Positions 1,717-14,678 of a DNA stretch of 64,000 nt are shown in pieces (the first letter of the stretch is position 1; each line of letters opens with the position of its first letter). The notes under the pieces are model-generated. The model was not told the DNA's origin and did not search any database. It saw only the letters and a program-made list of their open reading frames with translations. A program made the translations under genes and the position numbers. Origin of the DNA: Candidatus Tumulicola sp. GTDB taxonomy: Bacteria > Vulcanimicrobiota > Vulcanimicrobiia > Eremiobacterales > Eremiobacteraceae. The stretch covers positions 496,001-560,000 of the forward strand of contig DATNNM010000011.1 in the NCBI GenBank assembly GCA_035601835.1, in the 5' to 3' direction.

Positions 1717-1749
1717 GCGGCGCCGAACTCGGCGCCGCTTTCTTTTTTT
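1717..1749 (+). terminator. Rho-independent terminator
   Basis: A perfect 9-bp stem (GCGGCGCCG / CGGCGCCGC) with an AACT loop is followed by a T-rich run. It lies between the convergent lipoprotein and MFS genes; the MFS stop codon is at the end of the T-run. Confidence 0.85.
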
Positions 1750-3031
1750 ATGCCAACTCGCGCACGTCGCGGCGCAGCCACGCCCCAAGGGCGACCACGG
1801 CGACGATGACGCCGCCCACCAAGAAGGTCGCGGAGAGCGACGATAAGCTCGCCGCAAATCCCAGCACGTATGCCCCCAGCGGCATCAGGCCAAGAAAAAT
1901 CATGGTGTAGATAGACATGACGCGCCCGCGCATGTCCGGCGGCGTGTACGTCTGCAGCAGCGTGTTGGCCATGCCCAAGAACAACATCGAGGCGACGCCG
2001 AGACCAGCGAGCGCTGCGGAGACTCCCCAAAACGTCTGTGCAAGGCCCAAGAACGCCAGCACGATGCCCGAAGCGGCCGCGCTTGCCAAAAAGATCACGC
2101 CGCGATCGCGCCGCACGCCGATGAGCGCCGTGATGATGGACCCCGCCAGGGCGCCGACGCCGGCAAACGCCATGAGTTCGCCGAGAATGCGCGCGTCGGC
2201 GTGGAGCACGCTCTTCGCGAGGGCAGGCAGAAGCGTGATGTACGGCCGCGCGACGATCGACAGAACCGCGGACACGATGATGACCCCGAGCACGGCTGCA
2301 TTGCTGCGCATGTAGTCAAAACCAGCGAGCATGTCGCTCCACAGGCCGGGGCGGTTGTCCATCGGCGTCGCCGGTTTGGGCTTCATCGCGAGCACCGCGG
2401 CCAGCACCGCCACATACGAGGCGGCATTGATGAAGAAGCACACGGCAAAGCCGACGCTCGCGACCAGGAGGCCGCCCAGGACCGGTCCGATGATGAAGGG
2501 CGCGTTGAAGGCCGCGGAGTTGAGGCCGATGGCGTTCATGAGCTCGCGGCGGCCGACCAGCACCGAAACGAGCGACTGCCGGGTCGGCGCCTCAAAGGCG
2601 GCCGCGGCTGATGATATCGCGGCGAGCAGCATCACGTGCCAGATCTGGATGACGTGCAGCGCCACGAGAACGCCCAGGAGCAGTGTCGCGAGCGCCATGA
2701 CGAATTGGCTCGCGGCGAGCAGCCTGCGGCGGTCGACCCGGTCGATGATCGCGCCGGCGAAGCCGGAAAGCGCGAGCACGGGCACCGCGCGCACGAAGCC
2801 CACCAAGCCGAGATAGAACGGCGCTACAGCCGGTGAGGGGGAAAGTTCGACCACGAGCCAGCCCTGGGCGAGCAGGGCCATCCACGTGCCCGTATTGGAG
2901 ACCAAAAGCCCGAACCATAGCAATCGGAACTCGCGATAGGCGAGGGCGCCAAATCGCGCGCGGGCGTGTGGAGACGGGAGGTCGAGGTGGGGTTCGGGGC
3001 TGTCTGCGATATCGGAGACGATGACGGGCAC
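1748..3031 (-). CDS. MFS transporter (EntS/MFS_3-like exporter)
   Basis: 427-aa polytopic membrane protein, probably 12 helices, of the major facilitator superfamily. The N-terminal half has the LLVSNTGTWMALLAQGWLV and IIDRVDRRRLL features seen in the enterobactin-exporter-like (EntS, MFS_3) group, in which the D-R-x-x-R-R loop between helices 2 and 3 is conserved. Proton-driven export of a small molecule is the likely role; substrate unknown. The start is GTG at 3031 without a clear ribosome binding site. It is read in the same direction as the luxE-luxC-aminotransferase operon about 420 bp upstream, so it could export that product, but the gap and the repeats between them weaken the link. 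Confidence 0.8.
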   Translation of the reverse strand: MPVIVSDIADSPEPHLDLPSPHARARFGALAYREFRLLWFGLLVSNTGTWMALLAQGWLVVELSPSPAVAPFYLGLVGFVRAVPVLALSGFAGAIIDRVDRRRLLAASQFVMALATLLLGVLVALHVIQIWHVMLLAAISSAAAAFEAPTRQSLVSVLVGRRELMNAIGLNSAAFNAPFIIGPVLGGLLVASVGFAVCFFINAASYVAVLAAVLAMKPKPATPMDNRPGLWSDMLAGFDYMRSNAAVLGVIIVSAVLSIVARPYITLLPALAKSVLHADARILGELMAFAGVGALAGSIITALIGVRRDRGVIFLASAAASGIVLAFLGLAQTFWGVSAALAGLGVASMLFLGMANTLLQTYTPPDMRGRVMSIYTMIFLGLMPLGAYVLGFAASLSSLSATFLVGGVIVAVVALGAWLRRDVRELA

Positions 3032-3051: not shown

Positions 3052-3076
3052 CCGGGGCTAAAGCCCCGGCACTACA
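3052..3076 (+). repeat. Dispersed TAAA-loop hairpin repeat, full copy
   Basis: Full consensus copy: stem CCGGGGC, loop TAAA, stem GCCCCGG, tail CACTACA. It lies just upstream of the MFS start. Confidence 0.85.
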
Positions 3077-3100: not shown

Positions 3101-3124
3101 AAACGCCTGGGCCTAAAATCAGTT

Positions 3125-3150
3125 ACGACCGGGCCGTGAGGCCCGGTCGT
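3125..3150 (+). repeat. Long perfect hairpin, variant stem
   Basis: An 11-bp perfect stem (ACGACCGGGCC / GGCCCGGTCGT) with a GTGA loop, followed by TACTG. Same size and setting as the dispersed hairpins but with a different loop; no T-run follows on either side. Confidence 0.6.
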
Positions 3151-3450
3151 TACTGTCTGGCCGATGGCGCTGTTGCCGCGTTTTCGAACTGACCATTGTA
3201 CACTGCCAGCTCGCTTACGAAGGCATTACTGGGACGCGATCCCCAGGTCCATCACTTGACGTGAGTCAAGTCCCCAACGGCAGGGGTACCATTTCCGAAA
3301 CGCTCGGCTCTCTACGCTTGCAACCGTAGCATCCGTTGTTGCTTCGCTGTTTCGGCACCGCGGTCGGTGTATGGGCATCATACTGTGCGCGCGCTAGCAA
3401 TACAAGCGGAACGACTGTTCGTTTTTGAAATAAATTGTGGATAAGTTGTG

Positions 3451-4812
3451 TCAGGCTTCGATCAGCGCCTCAGCAACGATGCCGAGCGCAAACTCAAGTT
3501 GTTCTTTTTCGATCACCAACGGTGGCGTGAACGACAAGACATTATTAGCAGGACCACCTGCAAGCAGCACCACGCCGCGACGCAAAGCGCCTGCAACGGT
3601 TTGCGCTGCGATCTTGCTCGCCGGCTCGCCGGCTTCATCCACGCACTCGAGTCCCCACATGAGGCCCTTGCCGCGGACGTCGCCGATCCGTCCACCGGCA
3701 CGATCGCGGATCGCGTTCAACATGGCGCCAAGCGGTTTTTCCAACGCTGCCGCGCGTTCGACCAGTTTGTGCTCGCGTAACTCTTGGATGCTTGCCAACG
3801 CGGCGGCGCAGCCCGTTGGGTGCCCTAGGAAGGTGCTCGTGTGGATCGCCTCGCCGGTACATTCCGGCCACCGGTCCATCACCTCGGCCTTACCGATGCA
3901 GGCGGAGATCGGGAAGCCGGACGACATGCCCTTGCCCACGCAGATGAGGTCCGGCACCACGCCGGCGTGGTCGCACGCAAACCAGCGGCCCGTGCGGCCG
4001 AAGCCGGTGAAGATCTCGTCGGCGATGAGCAGTAAGCGGCGCCGGTCGCATAACTCGCGCAGGTCGGCGAGCCAACCCAACGGCGCCGGCACTTCGCCGC
4101 CGCGCCCCTGGATCGGCTCGACGATCACAGCGCCGATCTCGCCGCCGCCTTCGGCATCCAGCACCTCTTCGACAAAGCTGAGGCAGGCGGTTTCGCATTC
4201 CGGGTAGGTGAGGTTGAGCGGGCAGCGATAGCAATACGCGTACGGCACGCGCCGCGCAAACGAACCGAGTTGTTTGACGAAAGGCTCGCGGAAGTGGTCG
4301 CGATCGGTGAGCGCGAGGGCGCCGTAGGTCAGGCCGTGGTACGCGCCGGTGAAGCTGATGACGCCCGGCTTGCCCGTGGCGATGGCCGCCGTTTTTATCG
4401 CCGACTCCACCGCTTCGGCTCCTGAAGAAGCGAGAATGACGCGCTTGGAGCCTTTGCCGGGCGTCACCTCGCATAGCGCTTCCGCCAACAGCACTTTGCC
4501 TTCGGTGGGATGCACGTCGCCCATACCGTGCAACAGTCTGCCCGCTTGATGCGCGAGCGCCTCGACGACGCGAGGATTGCTGTGCCCGGCGGCGGCGACC
4601 CCGAAAGCTCCGCTCAGATCGACATAGACGTTGCCGTCGACGTCCACGAGATTCGCGCCGGTGCCGCGCTCGAAGAAGACCGGGAAATCGTCGCTGACGT
4701 AGGTGACGTCACGGCACTCGCATTCACGCAGGCGCTTGGCCAGTTCGCGGCTGCGCGGGCCGGGCGGCTCGACCACGACGTGGGCCAAGTCCTTGCCGGT
4801 GAGTTCTTTCAC
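3451..4812 (-). CDS. Class III PLP-dependent aminotransferase
   Basis: 453-aa aminotransferase of the acetylornithine/4-aminobutyrate/omega-transaminase family. It moves an amino group to an aldehyde or keto acceptor. Visible landmarks are the SSGAEAVESA phosphate-binding loop, AYHG, VEPIQGRGGE, LLIADEIFTGFGRTG (Asp on the pyridine nitrogen) and CVGKGMSSGFPIS (Schiff-base Lys). A cysteine cluster (YCYRCP...ECETAC) is present in the middle. GTG 4812 is chosen because GGAGGG precedes it and because it overlaps the luxC stop as GTGA, which suggests translational coupling. As the last gene of luxE-luxC-aminotransferase its likely substrate is the aldehyde made by LuxC, giving a primary amine. The substrate is inferred from context only. 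Confidence 0.9.
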   Translation of the reverse strand: MKELTGKDLAHVVVEPPGPRSRELAKRLRECECRDVTYVSDDFPVFFERGTGANLVDVDGNVYVDLSGAFGVAAAGHSNPRVVEALAHQAGRLLHGMGDVHPTEGKVLLAEALCEVTPGKGSKRVILASSGAEAVESAIKTAAIATGKPGVISFTGAYHGLTYGALALTDRDHFREPFVKQLGSFARRVPYAYCYRCPLNLTYPECETACLSFVEEVLDAEGGGEIGAVIVEPIQGRGGEVPAPLGWLADLRELCDRRRLLLIADEIFTGFGRTGRWFACDHAGVVPDLICVGKGMSSGFPISACIGKAEVMDRWPECTGEAIHTSTFLGHPTGCAAALASIQELREHKLVERAAALEKPLGAMLNAIRDRAGGRIGDVRGKGLMWGLECVDEAGEPASKIAAQTVAGALRRGVVLLAGGPANNVLSFTPPLVIEKEQLEFALGIVAEALIEA

Positions 4813-5987
4813 GCGCCCTCCGCTTCGCAAAAATCTTGGACTGTTGGGCGATAGCCGAATGGCGGCCGCTGCATTTCTCCAAGCTCGCAATGACGCCTCG
4901 CCGGCGAAGCTTCGAGCGCCGAACGCTCTTCGGGCGCCAGCCCGCCCGCCGTTCCGATCGTCTCCAATGGCCGGCCAAATGCGGCGAGGTGTCGCTGCAT
5001 AGTCCCGGCATCCGCGCATGGCTTGACGACGACGACCCGGCCGAAGCCCGCGCACCGGGGCGCGCCGTCGGGTTCAACGACGACGACGAACTCAGGGACG
5101 CCGCTCTTGGCCGGTCCTGTGAGGAGCGTGCTCAGGCCGTGTGGCACCGCATCGAGCGCGGTCACCGCGCAGCGCCGGAGAAAGCTAGCGATCAGCGCGG
5201 GCTCAGCCTCTTCCAGCGCGGCGCGCGGCAATGCGCGCCCCTCGCGCTCGAGTGCCGCCGCCAGCGCGCGCGCGAACAACGTGGCCCTACCGGCGTCGCC
5301 GCGCACGTAGACGGTTTGCGGCGACATGCAACCGCGCTGATCGAAGAGGCAGACGTCGCGGGCCGCGGCCGCGGCCGCCTCGTTCAGCTCCGCTCCGGCG
5401 TTCACATATCCGACGCTATACGAATCGCCATAAGGAACAAAATGTGGTATGCCAGACTTTAGTCTGGCTTTGATGCGAGAGCGGAGAGCATCGAGCGTTT
5501 CATCGCTGCCGAACGCGATGACGCGCTCGACCTGATCCAGTGCCTCGGCCTCCGGCTCTGTTTCGCCGCCGCGCCAATGTTGCGCGGAAACCGCTCCGGC
5601 CACGCCATCCAGTTGCGCCGAGACGATGGGCGCAAGATGCCGTTCGTCGCTTGCCGCCTTGAGGATGACCGGTGAGCCGGCCAGCGCGGCGCAGAACGCC
5701 GACGACACCGCCGGCCCGATGATATTTCCGGGCAAGATCACGAGGGTTGAAACCGGTCGCCCGGAGAGCGCCTGCGTCATCGCGCGAGCCGTTGCTTCGT
5801 CAAGATCGAATAACACGTTGTCCAGTGCGCGCTCCACAACCGGCGCCGGCCATCGGCCGCCGGCAAGCGCGCTGCGCGCCTGCGCACGCACCGGAGATGA
5901 CGGATCGCGCCACTCCGCCGCGCACTCGGCGATGCGGCGGACGGGAAGGTCGAGGCTATCGGCGACCGGCATGCTATCGGGCGCCAT
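4809..5987 (-). CDS. luxC: LuxC-family acyl-CoA/acyl-protein reductase
   Basis: 392-aa member of the LuxC fatty-acid reductase family (aldehyde dehydrogenase fold). It reduces an acyl thioester or enzyme-bound acyl group with NADPH to an aldehyde. The region VCLFDQRGCMSPQTVYV holds the likely acyl-accepting Cys, and LVILPGNIIGPAV matches the N-terminal family signature. ATG 5987 overlaps luxE by 14 bp; ATG 5972, two bases past the luxE stop, is an alternative. Codons around 5440-5470 are AT-rich and rare for this gene, because a hairpin repeat sits there in frame and appears to add a few residues (ARLKSGIPH). No luxAB luciferase genes are in the window, so bioluminescence is not implied. Confidence 0.85.
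   Translation of the reverse strand: MAPDSMPVADSLDLPVRRIAECAAEWRDPSSPVRAQARSALAGGRWPAPVVERALDNVLFDLDEATARAMTQALSGRPVSTLVILPGNIIGPAVSSAFCAALAGSPVILKAASDERHLAPIVSAQLDGVAGAVSAQHWRGGETEPEAEALDQVERVIAFGSDETLDALRSRIKARLKSGIPHFVPYGDSYSVGYVNAGAELNEAAAAAARDVCLFDQRGCMSPQTVYVRGDAGRATLFARALAAALEREGRALPRAALEEAEPALIASFLRRCAVTALDAVPHGLSTLLTGPAKSGVPEFVVVVEPDGAPRCAGFGRVVVVKPCADAGTMQRHLAAFGRPLETIGTAGGLAPEERSALEASPARRHCELGEMQRPPFGYRPTVQDFCEAEGA
5443..5468 (-). repeat. Hairpin repeat inside the luxC coding region
   Basis: On the coding strand this reads stem GCCAGAC, loop TAAA, stem GTCTGGC, tail ATACCACA. It fits the family plan (stem-TAAA-stem-tail) with a different stem sequence. It is in frame, without a stop, and encodes part of ARLKSGIPH. 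Confidence 0.65.
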
Positions 5988-7083
5988 GCTCGAGCAGCGC
6001 ATCGATCGCAATACTACAGCCCTTCGGCGGCGCTCCTGCGAAGCGCCCGATGAGCTCAAAGCCGCCCGACACGATGCGCGCAACGTCGGCCGTCAAGACC
6101 GCAGCGACCGAGCCGCGGTTGCTCAAATCGAAGACTTGAAGCAGTCCTTGGCGGCCCTCCCGAACCGGCTTGCCGGTGACGGGATCCACGACCGCGATGC
6201 GAGTCCAATGCGGGCCGATCTTGGTGCCGACGCGCGCTTCGCGCTCCGCGAAGTAATCGGCCAGGTTCGCATCATACCATTGACTACCCAATTCGCACAT
6301 GCCATATTCGGAAACGCAAAACACGCGCGGTATGCCCAAGATATCGGAAAACCAGCGATAGAGGCGCTCGCCCGACACCTCGCGAGAGCGGCCCTTGAAA
6401 CCGCCCGTTTCGACCACGCGGCTGCCGCGTGGCAGCTTGACGCGCAATCCCTCCTTCTCGCAGCGCTCGAAGAAATGCACGAAAGCGAATGCCGTGCCGA
6501 TCACGGCGACGGGCTCGGCGACCGTTCGAAGCATGCCGGCGGCGGACTCAAAGTCCAGCTTGTCGTCGCGGATCAAGAAAGCATCGCGCTTGGTCCCCAG
6601 CGTTTGACTGAGCTTCGACAACATGTATGAAAGCGAAGACTGTGGAGCTTGCGCAAACGATGGCGCCAGGAATAGCATTTGTATGGAGGTCTTGTCGGGC
6701 ATGACGCATGCTCGAAAATGAGCGAGCAGCGACGCATCGTACAGCGCGGTGGAAGTGAGTTCATGGCGGGATCGGGCACCCTGCGCCCCGGTTGTTCCGC
6801 TGGACAAGAATGTGACCTGCGTGTGCTCCGCGGGGAAGCACGCCAACCGCGTTAGACCGAATGCGGACGTCGGAATCGCGGGGACGTCGAGCCACCCGTG
6901 CACCGACTCGGGCGTTTGGCCGAACCGGTCGCAGTAGAGCCGGTAGCCCGGATTGCACGCGTACTGGTGTGCAAACAGCTCGAGGGCCAAACGCTGGAAC
7001 GACACATTGTTGGCGCTCGGTAGCTCGATGAAGTAGCGTATCCTCTTGTCAAGCTCGTCGGCATTCGAGACGGAGATGTCCAC
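5974..7083 (-). CDS. luxE: LuxE-family acyl-protein synthetase
   Basis: 369-aa member of the LuxE acyl-protein synthetase family (ANL adenylating superfamily relatives). It activates a fatty acid with ATP and hands the acyl group to an enzyme thiol and then to LuxC. The TFLSSGTTGAQGARS stretch is the ATP/AMP-binding P-loop-like motif, and FCVSEYGMCELGSQWYD matches the second conserved core motif. The C-terminus (DLSNRGSVAAVLTADVA) also fits the family. The start is GTG 7083. It is the first gene of the leftward operon luxE-luxC-aminotransferase. An 81-bp gap with a hairpin repeat separates it from the divergent thioesterase gene. Confidence 0.85.
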   Translation of the reverse strand: MDISVSNADELDKRIRYFIELPSANNVSFQRLALELFAHQYACNPGYRLYCDRFGQTPESVHGWLDVPAIPTSAFGLTRLACFPAEHTQVTFLSSGTTGAQGARSRHELTSTALYDASLLAHFRACVMPDKTSIQMLFLAPSFAQAPQSSLSYMLSKLSQTLGTKRDAFLIRDDKLDFESAAGMLRTVAEPVAVIGTAFAFVHFFERCEKEGLRVKLPRGSRVVETGGFKGRSREVSGERLYRWFSDILGIPRVFCVSEYGMCELGSQWYDANLADYFAEREARVGTKIGPHWTRIAVVDPVTGKPVREGRQGLLQVFDLSNRGSVAAVLTADVARIVSGGFELIGRFAGAPPKGCSIAIDALLEHGAR

Positions 7084-7103
7084 GCTTTCGCAGTTCTACA
7101 TCA

Positions 7104-7122
7104 CCGGGGCTAAAGCCCCGGC
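7104..7122 (+). repeat. Dispersed TAAA-loop hairpin repeat
   Basis: CCGGGGC-TAAA-GCCCCGG followed by CGACAACA, a diverged tail. It lies between the divergent luxE and thioesterase starts. Confidence 0.8.
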
Positions 7123-7164
7123 GACAACAAGGTCCGGCAGTACACTGGGTAAGAAGCTGGCTAA

Positions 7165-7566
7165 ATGAACCTCAAGATCGGGCAGACGTCGCAGTCAGAA
7201 TATGTCGCTTCTGCGGAACGGCTGGCGGATCGATATGGCAATGCCGGTGTTCCGGTTCTGGCGACGCCGCACTTGGTGGCGCTCGCCGAGAGCGAATGCG
7301 TGCGCTGCGTGGCAGACGCGCTCGCGCCCGGAACGTCGACGGTCGGCATCCGGCTGGACGTGCGCCACCTCGCAGCCACGCCCGAGGCCATGCGCTTCAC
7401 GATGCGCGCGGAGTTGGCCGAGATCGATCGGCGCAGGCTGGTTTTCAAAGTCGAAGCGCACGACGAAGTCGAGAAGATCTTCGAAGGCGTTCACGAGCGT
7501 TTCATCGTCGAGACCGGACCGTTTCTGGTCAAGACGAGCGCCAAGAAGGCAGCGGCGAAGCGGTGA
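7165..7566 (+). CDS. Hotdog thioesterase, FlK-like
   Basis: 133-aa protein of the fluoroacetyl-CoA-thioesterase-like hotdog family, which hydrolyses small acyl-CoA esters. Family features are ATPHLVALAESECV (the Glu of the active site), STVGIRLDVRHLAATPEAM (His) and the HERFIVE end. Most members act on ordinary acyl-CoA, so fluoroacetate resistance should not be inferred. It has a Lys/Ala-rich tail. The stop overlaps the next gene as GTGA, and the gene is divergent from luxE. It may release or edit acyl-CoA for the neighbouring LuxCE system (inference). Confidence 0.75.
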   Translation: MNLKIGQTSQSEYVASAERLADRYGNAGVPVLATPHLVALAESECVRCVADALAPGTSTVGIRLDVRHLAATPEAMRFTMRAELAEIDRRRLVFKVEAHDEVEKIFEGVHERFIVETGPFLVKTSAKKAAAKR

Positions 7567-8195
7567 TCGTCGAGCATATCCCGGTCGGACTCTTAGCGTG
7601 CAACTGTATCGTGCTCGGCGATGAGAAGACCGGCAAAGCGATCGTCATCGATCCCGGCGATGATATCGACAAGATCGAGGCGCTCCTCTCCAAGCACGGG
7701 CTGACGGTGACGGCCATCCTCGCGACGCACGCACACATCGACCATGTTGGTGGACTCGCGCTGCTCAAAGAGCGCACTGGGGCCCCGGCGTTGATCCACG
7801 AAGCCGATGTCCCCCTGTACGAAGCGCTTGCAGCGCAAGCGGAATGGCTGGGCGTACCCGCGCCGCCCGTCGGCGAGATCGACAAGAACCTCGTTGACGG
7901 AGGATCGATCGACTTCGGGCGCCTGCGAGTCGACGTGCGCCACACACCCGGACACACGCCGGGCAGCGTTTCGCTCGTATTGCCGCAGGACAAGCCCGTG
8001 GTCTTTTCCGGCGACACGCTTTTTGCCGGCAGCATCGGCCGAACCGACTTGTGGGGCGGCAATTTCGACGACATCATGCGTTCCATACGCGGCACGTTGA
8101 TGGCGCTGCCGGACGAAGCGTTGGTAGTGCCGGGGCACGGACCAGAGACGACGATCGGCGCCGAACGGCGCACCAACCCGTTCATCACAAAGTAA
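7563..8195 (+). CDS. MBL-fold metallo-hydrolase (glyoxalase II/YcbL-like)
   Basis: 210-aa single-domain metallo-beta-lactamase-fold hydrolase. The dinuclear zinc ligands are visible: ATHAHIDHVGG, HTPGHTPGS, FSGDTLFAGSIGRTD and VPGHGP. The short length and GRTDL motif are typical of the YcbL/GloB-like subgroup, which cleaves thioesters such as S-lactoylglutathione; the actual substrate is unknown. The GTG start overlaps the stop of the thioesterase, so the two are probably made together. A second, HTH-fused MBL protein of the same type lies at 45485-46318. Confidence 0.85.
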   Translation: MIVEHIPVGLLACNCIVLGDEKTGKAIVIDPGDDIDKIEALLSKHGLTVTAILATHAHIDHVGGLALLKERTGAPALIHEADVPLYEALAAQAEWLGVPAPPVGEIDKNLVDGGSIDFGRLRVDVRHTPGHTPGSVSLVLPQDKPVVFSGDTLFAGSIGRTDLWGGNFDDIMRSIRGTLMALPDEALVVPGHGPETTIGAERRTNPFITK

Positions 8196-10102: not shown

Positions 10103-10507
10103 TTACATCTTGGAGAAGGCTTCGGCGGCGGTGGTCGGCGCTTTGGCCTTGCGATAGTTGTCGATCGTCACTTTGAGCGCCTCGAGCACGCGGACCGGAT
10201 AGTCCTTTTTGCGCTCGGGGAAGCCGTCGAGGAACGACTCGATTTCTGCAGGCGTGATCGCTTCCGCTTCGTCCACGGTCTTGTTCTTGGCGAGCGTCGT
10301 GAGAATCGCGCAAGTGGCGACGCCGAAACCGCAGCCGGTCGTGAAATACGAAATGTCCTCGATCCTATCGCCCTCGCCGACCTTGAGATAGAACGTGTAC
10401 ATGTCGCCGCACGAGTCCGAGAAATACTCGCCCGTAGCGCTCGGGTTTTCCATGGTGGCAAACCCGTGTCGCTTCTCGACGAGCTCTTGAAACTTGGGGA
10501 AATCCAT
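10103..10507 (-). CDS. NifU N-terminal-like iron-sulfur scaffold-type protein
   Basis: 134-aa protein of the IscU/NifU_N fold. The SDSCGDMYTF motif gives Cys33 and Asp35, and TTGCGFGVATC gives Cys59 plus an extra Cys66. Where IscU and SufU carry a third cluster-ligand Cys (before the last helix) this protein has KDYPVRVLEA, with no Cys. So it may be a modified scaffold or an accessory cluster carrier rather than a standard one. The ATG follows the sufR stop directly (TAG-ATG), so it is co-translated with the SUF regulator. A conventional SufU is encoded separately at 16270. Confidence 0.8.
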   Translation of the reverse strand: MDFPKFQELVEKRHGFATMENPSATGEYFSDSCGDMYTFYLKVGEGDRIEDISYFTTGCGFGVATCAILTTLAKNKTVDEAEAITPAEIESFLDGFPERKKDYPVRVLEALKVTIDNYRKAKAPTTAAEAFSKM

Positions 10508-11149
10508 CTAGGTGCCTCCAGCTTTGGAAGGGATGATGAACTCGCAGACGTCGTCGCCTCGTGCGATCGAGGTTCGCTGCGTCGGCGTGGTGGGCAATAC
10601 CTCTTGCATCAGCGTGTGAACGACGCCGCAAACCTGCGGGTGCGCTACGGCGGTATCCTTGAACGGGCAGTTGTGCTCGCGCAGGACAAACCCGTCCTGC
10701 GTGCGTTCGAAGTCGGCGAGCACGCCTTGCTCTTGGAGGATCTTGGTCAGCTCGGCTACTCGCTGTTCATCGCCCTTGCCCTCGAAGCGCGACGCATATT
10801 TGCGCGCGGAGCGCTTGCCAAGGTTGCGGAACAGCGCAGAAACGCGTTCCTCGCCTTCTTCGGCGCGCAACTCGTTCAACACAGCGTTGAGCAGAACGCC
10901 GTAACGCTGTGGGAAGAGGCGCTCTCCCTCACCGGTGAGCGAAAACAGGAGGCTGGGCTTTGTCGGACCACGGCGTGCGCTCGTCTCGAGAACCAGCCCG
11001 TCGCGTTCCAGGCGCGCCAAGTGCTGCCGGATCGCGTTCGCGGTAAGACCGAGCTCTTCGGCGAGCTCGGAAGCCGTCCGCGGACCATGTCGTTTTAGCG
11101 ACTGGGTGACGCGACCGCGGGTCGTTTGAAAAAAACTTGCTTCTCGCAT
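10508..11149 (-). CDS. sufR: SufR-family iron-sulfur-sensing transcriptional regulator
   Basis: 213-aa regulator with an N-terminal winged helix (about residues 10-60; ASELAEELGLTANAIRQHL is the helix-turn-helix) and a C-terminal sensor part. Cys161 and Cys174 form the CX12C pattern of SufR, and Cys202 in VCEF is the third likely ligand. In SufR these hold an iron-sulfur cluster that allows repression of suf genes. It is divergent from sufC with about 127 bp between the starts, and a likely operator overlaps both -35 boxes. It forms an operon with the NifU-like gene. Confidence 0.9.
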   Translation of the reverse strand: MREASFFQTTRGRVTQSLKRHGPRTASELAEELGLTANAIRQHLARLERDGLVLETSARRGPTKPSLLFSLTGEGERLFPQRYGVLLNAVLNELRAEEGEERVSALFRNLGKRSARKYASRFEGKGDEQRVAELTKILQEQGVLADFERTQDGFVLREHNCPFKDTAVAHPQVCGVVHTLMQEVLPTTPTQRTSIARGDDVCEFIIPSKAGGT

Positions 11150-11191
11150 GATTGATTGCCGGGTCCCCAGCGGAGGGTTCCCTGCGAGTTA

Positions 11192-11220
11192 AGTATAAAG
11201 CAATCGCACAAGATTTTCAA
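11192..11220 (-). promoter_or_regulatory. Predicted sigma-70-type promoter of sufR
   Basis: Read leftward: TTGAAA (11220-11215), 17-bp spacer, TATACT (11197-11192). Close to the housekeeping consensus and about 45 bp from the sufR start. Confidence 0.75.
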
Positions 11221-11231
11221 CCATTATCTTG
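11209..11231. promoter_or_regulatory. Inverted repeat, putative SufR operator
   Basis: CAAGAT, 11 bp, ATCTTG. The arms touch the -35 boxes of both divergent promoters, so one bound dimer could control both. The assignment to SufR is by position only. Confidence 0.5.
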
Positions 11232-11257
11232 ACTATCTTTGCCCGTTGGCCTACAAT
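11229..11257 (+). promoter_or_regulatory. Predicted sigma-70-type promoter of the sufCBD operon
   Basis: TTGACT (11229-11234), 17-bp spacer, TACAAT (11252-11257). A near-consensus promoter that would give a very short leader before the sufC ATG at 11277. Confidence 0.8.
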
Positions 11258-11276
11258 ATTAACTGAGAAGGTACGC

Positions 11277-12038
11277 ATGCCAGACATCATCCTTGAAGTA
11301 CGCGATTTGCACGTTTCCGTGGGCGACAACGAGATCATCCGCGGGATTGACCTTTCGGTCGAGCGCGGCTCGGTGCACGCCCTGATGGGCCCCAACGGCT
11401 CCGGCAAAAGCACTCTGTCGCTGGTCCTGATGGGGCACCCCAAGTACGTGGTCACCAAAGGCGACATCTTCTTCGAAGGCAAGAGCGTGCTCGGCATGAA
11501 GCCCAACGAGCGCTCGCTTGCCGGCATGTTCCTCGCTTTCCAATACCCGTCCGCCGTGCCGGGCGTGAGCGTCGCCAATTTCATGCGCAACACGCTCATG
11601 GCGCGAGCCAAGGGCAATGCCCCGCTGACGCCGGCCAAATTCAAAGGGCTGCTCGACTCAGCGTCCGACAAGCTCAAGATCGAGCGCTCAGTGTTGGGCC
11701 GCTACGTCAACGACGGTTTTTCGGGCGGCGAGAAGAAGCGGCTCGAAATGCTCCAAATGCTGGTGCTCAACCCGACGCTCGCAATCTTAGACGAAACCGA
11801 TTCGGGGTTGGACATCGATGCGCTGCGCATCATCGCAGAAGGCATCGAGGCACAGCGTTCGCCGGAGCGCTCCATCCTGCTGATCACACACTACCAGCGC
11901 ATCTTGAACTACGTGAAGCCCGACGTCGTGCACGTGCTCGTCAAGGGCAAGATCGTCAAGCAAGGCGGGCCGGAGCTGGCGCACGAGCTCGAAGCGCAGG
12001 GCTACGATCCGCTCATCAAAGAGTTAGTGGAGGCCTAA
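11277..12038 (+). CDS. sufC: Fe-S cluster assembly ATPase SufC
   Basis: 253-aa ABC-type ATPase that powers the SufBCD scaffold in iron-sulfur cluster building. Walker A is GPNGSGKST, the Q-loop is FQYPSAVPG, the ABC signature is FSGGEKKR and Walker B/D-loop is LAILDETDSGLDIDAL, where the SufC-type DETDSGLD is seen. ATG 11277 is used because it follows GAGAAGG and the promoter; the frame is open further upstream to a TTG that is really the -35 box. First gene of sufC-B-D-Rieske-S-U. Confidence 0.95.
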   Translation: MPDIILEVRDLHVSVGDNEIIRGIDLSVERGSVHALMGPNGSGKSTLSLVLMGHPKYVVTKGDIFFEGKSVLGMKPNERSLAGMFLAFQYPSAVPGVSVANFMRNTLMARAKGNAPLTPAKFKGLLDSASDKLKIERSVLGRYVNDGFSGGEKKRLEMLQMLVLNPTLAILDETDSGLDIDALRIIAEGIEAQRSPERSILLITHYQRILNYVKPDVVHVLVKGKIVKQGGPELAHELEAQGYDPLIKELVEA

Positions 12039-12047
12039 GATATAACC

Positions 12048-13460
12048 ATGGCCCTCAAACAAGAACAACTCGTCGACAAAGATTATAAGTACGGTTTCCG
12101 CGATCAAACCGAGAGCTACGCTTTCAAAGCGCGCAAAGGCATCGATCACGACATCGTCGAGCAGATCTCGCAGATGAAAAAAGAGCCGCAATGGATGCAC
12201 GACTTCCGCCACAAATCGCTCGACATCTTCCTCTCCAAGCCGATGCCGCCGTGGGCCAATCTCGAGCTGCTCGGCCAGATCAATTTCGACGACATCTACT
12301 ATTACATGCGCGCCTCCGACGTCGAGGGCAAGACGTGGGAAGAGGTGCCCGAGGACATCAAGCGCACGTTCGACCGGCTCGGCATCCCGGAAGCGGAGCG
12401 CAAGTTCTTGGGCGGGGTCACCGCGCAGTACGATTCTGAAGTCGTCTATCACAGCATTCGCAAGGACCTCGAGGCCAAGGGCGTGCTGTTCTCCGACATG
12501 GACACCGGTCTGCGCGAGCACGAGGATATCGTGCGCGAGCATTTCGCCACGGTGATCCCGCCGGCGGACAACAAATTCTCCGCGCTCAATTCGGCGGCGT
12601 GGTCGGGCGGCTCGTTCATCTGGGTACCGCCGGGCGTCCGCGTGGATATTCCGCTGCAGGCCTACTTCCGCATCAACGCCGAGAGCATGGGCCAGTTCGA
12701 ACGCACGCTGATCATCGCCGAGCCGGGCTCGTTCGTGCACTACATCGAGGGATGTACCGCCCCGACGTACTCGAGCAACTCGCTGCACTCAGCCGTGGTG
12801 GAACTCATCGCCAAAGAAGGCGCGCATATCCGCTACACCACGATCCAGAACTGGTACAAGAACATCTATAATCTCGTGACCAAGCGCGCGATCGCGCACA
12901 AGAACTCGCACGTCGAGTGGGTCGACGGCAACATCGGCTCGCGCCTGACCATGAAGTATCCGTCGGTGTACATGGTGGGCGAAGGCGCGCGCGGCGAGGT
13001 GTTGTCGGTGGCGTACGCCAGTGAGGGCATGCATCAGGATGCCGGCGCGAAGATGATCCATGCCGCGCCGAACACGACCTCGATCATCACGAGCAAATCG
13101 GTGAGCAAGGGCGGCGGGCGCACCACCTATCGCGGCTTGGTCAAAGTGTACGAAGGCTGCGACGGCGTGAAATCCAACGTGCGCTGCGACGCGCTGCTCA
13201 TGGATCCGGAATCTCGCTCCGACACCTACCCGACCATGGAGATCGACGCCAAGAACGTGCGCATCGAGCACGAGGCGACCGTCTCGAAGGTCGGCGAAGA
13301 GCAGCTCTTCTACGTGATGAGCCGTGGCCTGACCGAGGTAGAGGCGACCACGATGATCGTCAACGGCTTCTTCGAGCCGTTCGTCAAGGAGCTGCCCATG
13401 GAATACGCGGTGGAGCTCAACCGGCTCATCGCGATGGAGATGGAAGGCTCCGTCGGGTAA
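12048..13460 (+). CDS. sufB: Fe-S cluster assembly protein SufB
   Basis: 470-aa beta-helix scaffold subunit of SufBCD, the site of cluster formation together with SufD. Family landmarks are the N-terminal [27 protein letters not shown] (the Cys of this loop is among the conserved ones), [14 protein letters not shown], and the C-terminal [18 protein letters not shown] with HEAT before it. Full length for the family. It starts 9 bp after sufC. Confidence 0.95.
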
Positions 13461-13463
13461 ACC

Positions 13464-14678
13464 TTGACCGAAACGCTGATCAAGAACGCAGTCGACGCCG
13501 AAATCATCAAAACGATTTCGGCGTCTGAGCCTGCGTGGCTGCGCGAACTGCGCCTGGGCGCGTTCGAGCGCTACGCGAGCCTGCCCACGCCCACGGATCG
13601 AACCCCAGGTTGGCGCCGCTTAAAGTTGGACGGGATCTCCTTCGACCCGCCGGCGCCGGCGCCGTCCAGCCCGTCCTGGGAAATCGGCAGCGAGAACGAA
13701 AGGAAAGGCGTATTCCTCGGCCACCTGAGCGCGTGCGCCAAGTTGGAGGCATTTGAACCACTCATCCGCGAGGAACTGACGCGCCGCACTCCAGCAAGTT
13801 CCTTGGAGAAATTCTCATCGCTGGTGCAGTGCGCTTGGCGGATCGGGTGTTTCGTTTACGTGCCCGACGGAGTTGAGGCGACGGAACCCATCCGTCTAGG
13901 CTACTTCGACTACGGTCCGTACCCGCGCACACTCATCATCCTGGGCAAGAACGCGCGTCTTACGTTGACGGAGCAGTTCGCCAAGGGTTACGATTTTACG
14001 GCTGGACTTACGACATTGGTTCTCGGAGATGGCGCACACCTCACGTACGCGCATGTTCAAGAATGTGAACACAGCGCCGTCGTCTTCTCGCACCAGCATG
14101 CGCGCATCGGGCGCGACGCCAAATTGGTGACGCTCAACTTCGGCCTCGGCGGCCGGCTGGCGAAAAGCGACGTCGAGGTCGAGCTGCTCGGCCGCGGCGC
14201 GCACAGCGATATGCTGGGGCTCATCTTCGCTGAAGGCTCGCAGCAATTCGACTACCATACGCTACAGGGCCACCGCTCGCCCGACACGCGCAGCGATCTG
14301 CTGTTCAAGGCCGCGTTGGACGACGAATCGCATTCGGTCTACACGGGCGTGATCATCATCGAAAAAGGCGCGCAGCGCAGCGATGCCTATCAGGCGAATC
14401 GCAACCTGTTGCTCGGCGCGAACGCGCGCGCAGACACCGAGCCCAAACTCGAGATTGAGGCAGACGACGTGCGCTGTACGCATGGCGCAACGGTCGGCCC
14501 CATCGACGAAGAACAGCTCTTCTACCTCCAGAGCCGCGGCCTCGACGAGGATTCGGCATCGCGGCTCGTCGTGGACGGATTCTTCCAGGACGTGCTCGAC
14601 CGCGTGGGCGATCCGCGCGTGACCGATCCGCTGCGCGAGAAGGTCTGGCCGCACCTCGGACGTCTTGGAGCGCACTAG
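13464..14678 (+). CDS. sufD: Fe-S cluster assembly protein SufD
   Basis: 404-aa partner of SufB, with the same C-terminal beta-helix: HGATVGPIDEEQLFYLQSRGL (HGAT and the QLFYLQSRG stretch define SufB/SufD) and LARLVVDGFF-like end (SRLVVDGFFQDVLDRV). The N-terminal helical part differs from SufB as expected. The start is TTG 13464, three bases after the sufB stop, so it is likely coupled. SufD binds SufC and assists iron entry in the E. coli complex. Confidence 0.92.
   Translation: MTETLIKNAVDAEIIKTISASEPAWLRELRLGAFERYASLPTPTDRTPGWRRLKLDGISFDPPAPAPSSPSWEIGSENERKGVFLGHLSACAKLEAFEPLIREELTRRTPASSLEKFSSLVQCAWRIGCFVYVPDGVEATEPIRLGYFDYGPYPRTLIILGKNARLTLTEQFAKGYDFTAGLTTLVLGDGAHLTYAHVQECEHSAVVFSHQHARIGRDAKLVTLNFGLGGRLAKSDVEVELLGRGAHSDMLGLIFAEGSQQFDYHTLQGHRSPDTRSDLLFKAALDDESHSVYTGVIIIEKGAQRSDAYQANRNLLLGANARADTEPKLEIEADDVRCTHGATVGPIDEEQLFYLQSRGLDEDSASRLVVDGFFQDVLDRVGDPRVTDPLREKVWPHLGRLGAH

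Follow-up and report, generated by a model that had tools for sequence, protein, structure and literature searches.

We analysed a 64,000-nucleotide stretch of the genome of a Candidatus Tumulicola sp. (hereafter the window; host genome G000, 2.57 Mb in 18 contigs, 97.9% complete) that encodes a LuxE-like acyl-activating protein, a LuxC-like acyl-thioester reductase, and a class III pyridoxal phosphate (PLP)-dependent aminotransferase. Judging from their sequences, the three proteins probably constitute a stand-alone module that would convert a carboxylic acid to a primary amine. The genes overlap (luxE and luxC by 14 bases, luxC and the aminotransferase gene by 4), as a first-pass annotation of this DNA had reported when it described them as coupled. 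Domain matches located all five of the genes in that annotation where it had placed them (Table 1).

The luxE product is a predicted member of the LuxE acyl-protein synthetase family, with a domain that extends across most of the protein and an acyl-accepting cysteine. A profile built for this protein (A1) matches the LuxE chain of the solved Photobacterium LuxC-LuxE complex (PDB accession 7XC6) with an E-value of 3e-32. The C-terminal acyl-accepting cysteine (C356, in a GCS motif) is invariant in 29 sequences and aligns with that of the solved LuxE. An AlphaFold2 model of the protein is of high quality (predicted local distance difference test [pLDDT] score 91.0), and among solved folds it comes closest to ANL ligases of the PaaK type, which are adenylating enzymes. 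The luxC product likewise has the domain and catalytic cysteine expected of the LuxC acyl reductase family. Its profile (A2) matches the LuxC chain of 7XC6 (E = 1.5e-25), and the catalytic cysteine, C220, is invariant and aligns with the solved protein. Both proteins are far from the cut-offs of the corresponding NCBIfam equivalogs (64 versus 550 bits for LuxE, 48 versus 750 bits for LuxC). The window LuxC is the one match to PF05893 in the host genome. No luciferase was found among the neighbouring genes scanned with Pfam; no genome-wide search for LuxA/LuxB was made.

The domain (PF00202), modelled fold, and invariant PLP lysine (K294) of the third protein identify it as a predicted class III enzyme. 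The top solved matches to its AlphaFold2 model (pLDDT 90.5) are GabT (TM-score about 0.9) and an alanine/serine racemase. GabT is the closest solved protein in both sequence (33–38% identity to solved GabTs) and fold, and the NCBIfam matches all come from γ-aminobutyrate (GABA) or acetylornithine aminotransferases and their like. These similarities would be explained by an ordinary GABA or acetylornithine enzyme that lies next to luxC by accident, which we consider highly improbable. The protein falls short of the cut-off in each NCBIfam model listed (best score 376 versus 552 bits; GabT 332 versus 507 bits; ArgD 274 versus 410 bits), and by these scores no curated family claims it. The host genome contains eight more class III matches, the nearest of which is 40% identical to the trio enzyme. 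We built a tree of LuxE-linked aminotransferases, 26 class III paralogues taken from the sampled genomes, and five Escherichia coli enzymes, using a quick search with Shimodaira–Hasegawa-like approximate likelihood ratio test (SH-aLRT) support and without bootstrap. The LuxE-linked proteins form a single clade (SH-aLRT 99) that spans at least four phyla, and all 26 paralogues fall outside it.

The active site of this clade also differs from that of GabT, where substrate carboxylates are bound by two arginines, R141 and R398, the second of which pairs with E211. On the E. coli GabT alignment, all complete LuxE-linked members replace R141 with leucine, E211 with arginine, and R398 with serine, alanine, threonine, glutamine, or glutamate (leucine, arginine, and serine in the window). 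The leucine at position 141 and the arginine at position 211 occur in none of the class III paralogues aligned. Because three GabT specificity residues are replaced, the aminotransferase is predicted not to be an ordinary GABA or acetylornithine enzyme. The altered residues indicate a substrate pair different from that of GabT, and the new arginine at GabT position 211, R237, may take the donor carboxylate in place of the lost R398. The first-pass annotation had named an ordinary clade, with the triplet missing from relatives, as the outcome that would overturn its proposal, and this is not what we found. Clade, scores, and conservation of the triplet across phyla all speak for a distinct enzyme, and we rejected a GabT or ArgD identity on the basis of the separate clade, the scores, and the active-site residues.

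The loss at position 398 and the presence of an alanine/serine racemase beside GabT among the top structural matches would also suit a racemase, lyase, or other activity of the class III fold that shares the operon by chance and is not an aldehyde transaminase. This seems unlikely to us, as the clade retains the PLP lysine and the full fold, and its close tie to an aldehyde-forming pair is best accounted for by use of the aldehyde.

In the proposed pathway, LuxE would use ATP to form an acyl-AMP and would then move the acyl group to its C-terminal cysteine. LuxC would accept the acyl group on its own cysteine and carry out an NAD(P)H-dependent reduction that gives an aldehyde, which the aminotransferase would capture to yield R-CH2-NH2. 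The free acid may be released, within the window's family, by the divergently encoded thioesterases described below, by analogy with LuxD of lux operons. The sequence of acid, aldehyde, and amine is the simplest pathway that employs all three enzymes; the direction, the metabolic coupling, and the amine as product are what we infer. In a catabolic alternative, an amine taken up by the cell would be deaminated by the aminotransferase, after which LuxC and LuxE would oxidise the product and release an acid. Membership of LuxC in the aldehyde dehydrogenase (ALDH) superfamily, to which a weak match to PDB accession 4h7n points, and the often oligotrophic nature of the hosts are consistent with this direction. 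It is nonetheless quite improbable, given that LuxE spends ATP as an activating enzyme and that a conserved amine importer or deaminase was not seen among the neighbouring genes. LuxE is also not known to operate in reverse.

The triplet, whose conservation the first-pass annotation had proposed to look for, proved to be class-wide and to occur in other phyla. Searches with the window LuxC returned matches in 48 of 61 relatives. In the loci inspected, the LuxE, LuxC, and aminotransferase genes adjoin in the same order and on the same strand wherever the extent of the contig permits, with the exception of L027, in which additional DNA sets luxE apart. Among 83 genomes from the window's Eremiobacterota class, profile searches detected LuxE in 82, almost always as a single copy, and the LuxE-type aminotransferase (counted as present at E ≤ 1e-120) in 78. 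Neither LuxE nor the LuxE-type aminotransferase was detected in 24 genomes from other classes of the phylum. The recurrence of the trio in a fixed order across the class is far beyond chance. The window LuxE is 56% identical to that of a Candidatus Eremiobacterota genome (L041), the closest named relative found.

The LuxE and aminotransferase genes lie on the same strand within 4 kb of each other in 64 of the 78 Eremiobacterota genomes that have both. In 11 genomes of genus g12 (G016, G021, G026, G041, G045, G046, G052, G053, G055, G074, and G075), luxE has been relocated away from the aminotransferase gene; in two of these, the genes are 0.2 and 2.6 Mb apart on one contig. Since both genes are retained in g12 though unlinked, the trio is kept together without a need for adjacency. 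Two loci of family f2 have a gene inserted between luxE and luxC: an opposite-strand lipoprotein-like gene in G054 (L134:10703-11983) and a gene for a 362-amino-acid protein in G042 (L136:7950-9038), for which a Pfam scan gave no match.

To cover other phyla, the LuxE profile was scanned against genomes of 84,980 species, and the fetched loci were then searched with profiles; the aminotransferase check covered a subset of the luxE-luxC loci. We identified an alternative gene order, aminotransferase-LuxE-LuxC, in Myxococcota/Deltaproteobacteria, in a Verrucomicrobia genome, and in an Omnitrophota genome. Among 144 Myxococcota genomes, 123 encode LuxE and 119 the aminotransferase. Both are present in 117, LuxE only in 6, the aminotransferase only in 2, and neither in 19 (Fisher p about 1e-16, uncorrected for relatedness). 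A reading of two tables together gives adjacent genes in 97 of the 117 genomes with both and separate genes in 20, three of which have the two genes on one contig at a distance of 0.6–1.6 Mb. The best 20 Myxococcota loci all have the aminotransferase-LuxE-LuxC order (20 of 20), and the trio is present in the cultured Minicystis rosea (L062). In a deltaproteobacterial metagenome-assembled genome, LuxE and LuxC are fused in a single 767-amino-acid reading frame (L048:3699-6002). Plasmid and phage searches gave weak and distant matches to LuxC and no match to LuxE. We also considered a class I/II aminotransferase encoded after luxE in Sumerlaeota as a stand-in for the class III enzyme. This candidate was dropped, and no replacement is claimed, because the protein scores well above the cut-off for an ordinary aromatic-amino-acid transaminase (574–603 versus 377 bits).

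Linkage in two gene orders, co-retention without linkage (in g12, Myxococcota, and Gemmatimonadota), the fusion, and the conserved cysteine, cysteine, and lysine of the three enzymes support the acid-to-amine unit that the first-pass annotation had put forward; they do not extend to the fatty acid, or to the lipid or signal product, that it had also suggested. The substrate is likely a fatty or other hydrophobic acid. The same chemistry could instead act on a small, sugar-type, or amino-acid-type acid, in the manner of ArgB-ArgC-ArgD or LysZ-LysY-LysJ, and provide an aminated precursor from which a surface glycan, polyamine, or cofactor is built, a possibility that we regard as real and less probable than a hydrophobic substrate. 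A core, single-copy, and non-clustered distribution would suit such a common metabolite. Glycan, sugar, and polyamine genes are not among the conserved neighbours, however, and the loss of both carboxylate-binding arginines of GabT disfavours an acceptor with a carboxylate of its own.

Several observations weigh against the proposed acid-to-amine module, of which the first also favours a non-fatty acid. LuxE and LuxC relatives function in O-antigen and flagellar-glycan pathways: the LuxE-domain protein RfbN takes part in Vibrio cholerae O-antigen tetronate synthesis, as stated in PMC4772473, and Aeromonas flagellar glycosylation islands contain luxE and luxC (PMC7874193). Two Gemmatimonadota genomes have luxE-luxC without an adjoining aminotransferase gene; the LuxE-type aminotransferase is located elsewhere in these genomes (512 and 555 bits, versus at most 284 for the next class III enzyme). 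The genes that flank the trio vary by family (Suf, metY/CoA-binding/Gfo-Idh-MocA, GGDEF, MFS) and give no clue to the substrate. Finally, the polar lipids of Vulcanimicrobium alpinus, the sole cultured member of Eremiobacterota, are recorded as unidentified lipids and glycolipids and not as aminolipids (PMC9758169), which argues mildly against an abundant free-amine lipid.

The trio resembles several known systems. Homology to the lux LuxC-LuxE pair extends near full length, with both catalytic cysteines conserved, and the thioesterase neighbour in the window's family recalls LuxD. In contrast to lux operons, neither luciferase nor LuxD adjoins the trio, and the aldehyde presumably goes to the aminotransferase. 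ArgB-ArgC-ArgD and LysZ-LysY-LysJ combine carboxyl activation, reduction, and class III transamination; they use a kinase and a glyceraldehyde-3-phosphate dehydrogenase-like reductase, whereas the window trio has LuxE and LuxC instead.

The general scheme of an acid-to-amine cascade has precedents in a small number of natural products. TamA and TamH of tambjamine YP1 biosynthesis convert a C12 acid to a C12 amine, with L-glutamate as donor, through activation, thioester reduction, and class III transamination (PMC9594044). PigE of prodigiosin biosynthesis follows the same three-step logic from fatty acid to amine (PMC8341465). The trio is predicted to share these steps, with an ANL enzyme for activation, an aldehyde as the product of thioester reduction, and a class III enzyme for transamination. 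TamA is a fusion of an ANL enzyme and an acyl carrier protein, whereas the window activator is a LuxE with an acyl-accepting cysteine. TamH is a transaminase fused to an AAR-like reductase; the window trio has a separate aminotransferase reading frame and a LuxC reductase of the ALDH superfamily. TamA and TamH also sit in a natural-product cluster, whereas the trio is single, part of the core genome, and outside any such cluster. Because its reductase comes from another family and its transaminase is not fused, the trio falls outside the Tam/Pig family and would be an independently assembled functional analogue with other enzymes.

Table 1. Features of the trio locus, in window coordinates.
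Feature	Position	Strand	Details
MFS_3/EntS-like exporter gene, downstream	1748-3031	-	PF05977
Structured non-coding RNA gene, between aminotransferase and MFS genes	3120-3385	-	Covariation, -10-like box, terminator
Class III PLP aminotransferase, distinct LuxE-linked clade	3451-4812	-	453 aa, GTG start; PF00202 E = 3e-105
luxC-like acyl-thioester reductase	4809-5987	-	392 aa; PF05893 E = 4e-30
luxE-like acyl-adenylating/acyl-transferring enzyme	5974-7083	-	369 aa, GTG start; PF04443 E = 1e-18 over residues 29-359
18-bp near-palindromic interspersed repeat, divergent intergenic region	7104-7121		Five copies in window
FlK-type hotdog acyl-CoA thioesterase, divergent neighbour	7165-7566	+	PF22636 E = 9e-31
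MBL-fold thioester-hydrolase-like protein, GloB-like, divergent neighbour	7563-8195	+	PF00753 E = 1e-36

The luxE gene and the gene for a predicted FlK-type thioesterase (FlK domain, 106.5 bits versus a cut-off of 27) diverge across an 81-bp gap. The thioesterase gene overlaps the following MBL-fold hydrolase gene by 4 bases; the top NCBIfam match of the hydrolase is GloB (100 bits, under the cut-off of 201). A divergent MBL or thioesterase gene beside luxE is conserved in loci of the window's family. The pair noted in the first-pass annotation is thus present and family-conserved, while other families and phyla have other neighbours. Most loci of family f2 encode, in order, a metY-like protein, a CoA-binding protein, LuxE, LuxC, the aminotransferase, and a Gfo/Idh/MocA oxidoreductase. 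Since neighbours differ between families and phyla, the core module is the trio only, and the substrate is not indicated by them. We rejected the thioesterases as core parts because they are seen in the window's family only.

The MFS exporter gene that the first-pass annotation placed downstream is present on the same strand, 419 bp from the aminotransferase gene, and its location is unchanged in every same-family locus that has sufficient flanking sequence (5 of 5). Because a terminator-like hairpin and the RNA gene separate it from the trio, it looks like a transcription unit of its own, though its position is conserved within the family. It was rejected on these grounds as a member of the operon and is not a core part of the module.

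In three Myxococcota loci, Suf genes follow the trio (L043 and L050, by Pfam; L068, by the same layout, not scanned). The trio may run straight into Rrf2-SufB-SufC-SufD in Myxococcota, and the window has a Suf cluster at 10103-14678, roughly 2 kb past the divergent pair. This proximity is probably a coincidence; we found no mechanism for it.

The non-coding RNA gene (A5; G000:C11:499120-499385) is about 266 nucleotides long and is conserved throughout the window's family (13 of 13 genomes), with a weak match in one f2 genome (G269, E = 2.6e-6). Of its 66 predicted pairs, 28 have two-sided changes, and 0 of 500 shuffles scored as high. The gene has its own -10-like box (TATACT; TATGAT in the window) and a terminator-like hairpin, and an Rfam search gave no match. 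The RNA gene also occurs in G001, where LuxE and the aminotransferase were both undetected, so it has no obvious place in the module. Right after the aminotransferase stop codon, at window positions 3425-3450 (minus strand), is a conserved sequence, TTATCCACAATTTATTT, that consists of a DnaA-box-like element and then an AT-rich stretch; in most aligned family members it precedes the RNA gene. The 18-bp near-palindrome CCGGGGCTTTAGCCCCGG is an interspersed repeat with five copies in about 7 kb (positions 3052, 7104, 8615, 9865, and 10068), where 0 are expected.

A lipid role was considered for Eremiobacterota only. Phosphatidylserine decarboxylase (PF02666) was detected in 0 of 41 Eremiobacterota genomes (G000–G040), and the same search detects the enzyme in E. 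coli and others. Membranes of Eremiobacterota are thus probably without phosphatidylethanolamine from the usual route. Because of this absence and the unidentified polar lipids of V. alpinus, it is conceivable, if rather doubtful, that the trio is a core cell-envelope pathway whose long-chain or branched alkylamine enters membrane lipids in place of phosphatidylethanolamine in Eremiobacteria.

We found no account of a LuxE-LuxC-aminotransferase trio or of a fatty-amine lipid pathway in the literature, subscription papers being outside the search. The trio is a near-universal, single-copy trait of one Eremiobacterota class, is found in most of the sampled Myxococcota, and has been detected as well in genomes of Verrucomicrobia, Omnitrophota, and Gemmatimonadota. 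Its activity can be tested in cultured organisms, namely Minicystis rosea and, very probably, Vulcanimicrobium alpinus, and its three genes are ready-made for biocatalysis from acids to amines. The distribution of the trio suggests that widespread soil bacteria make an amine that has yet to be described.

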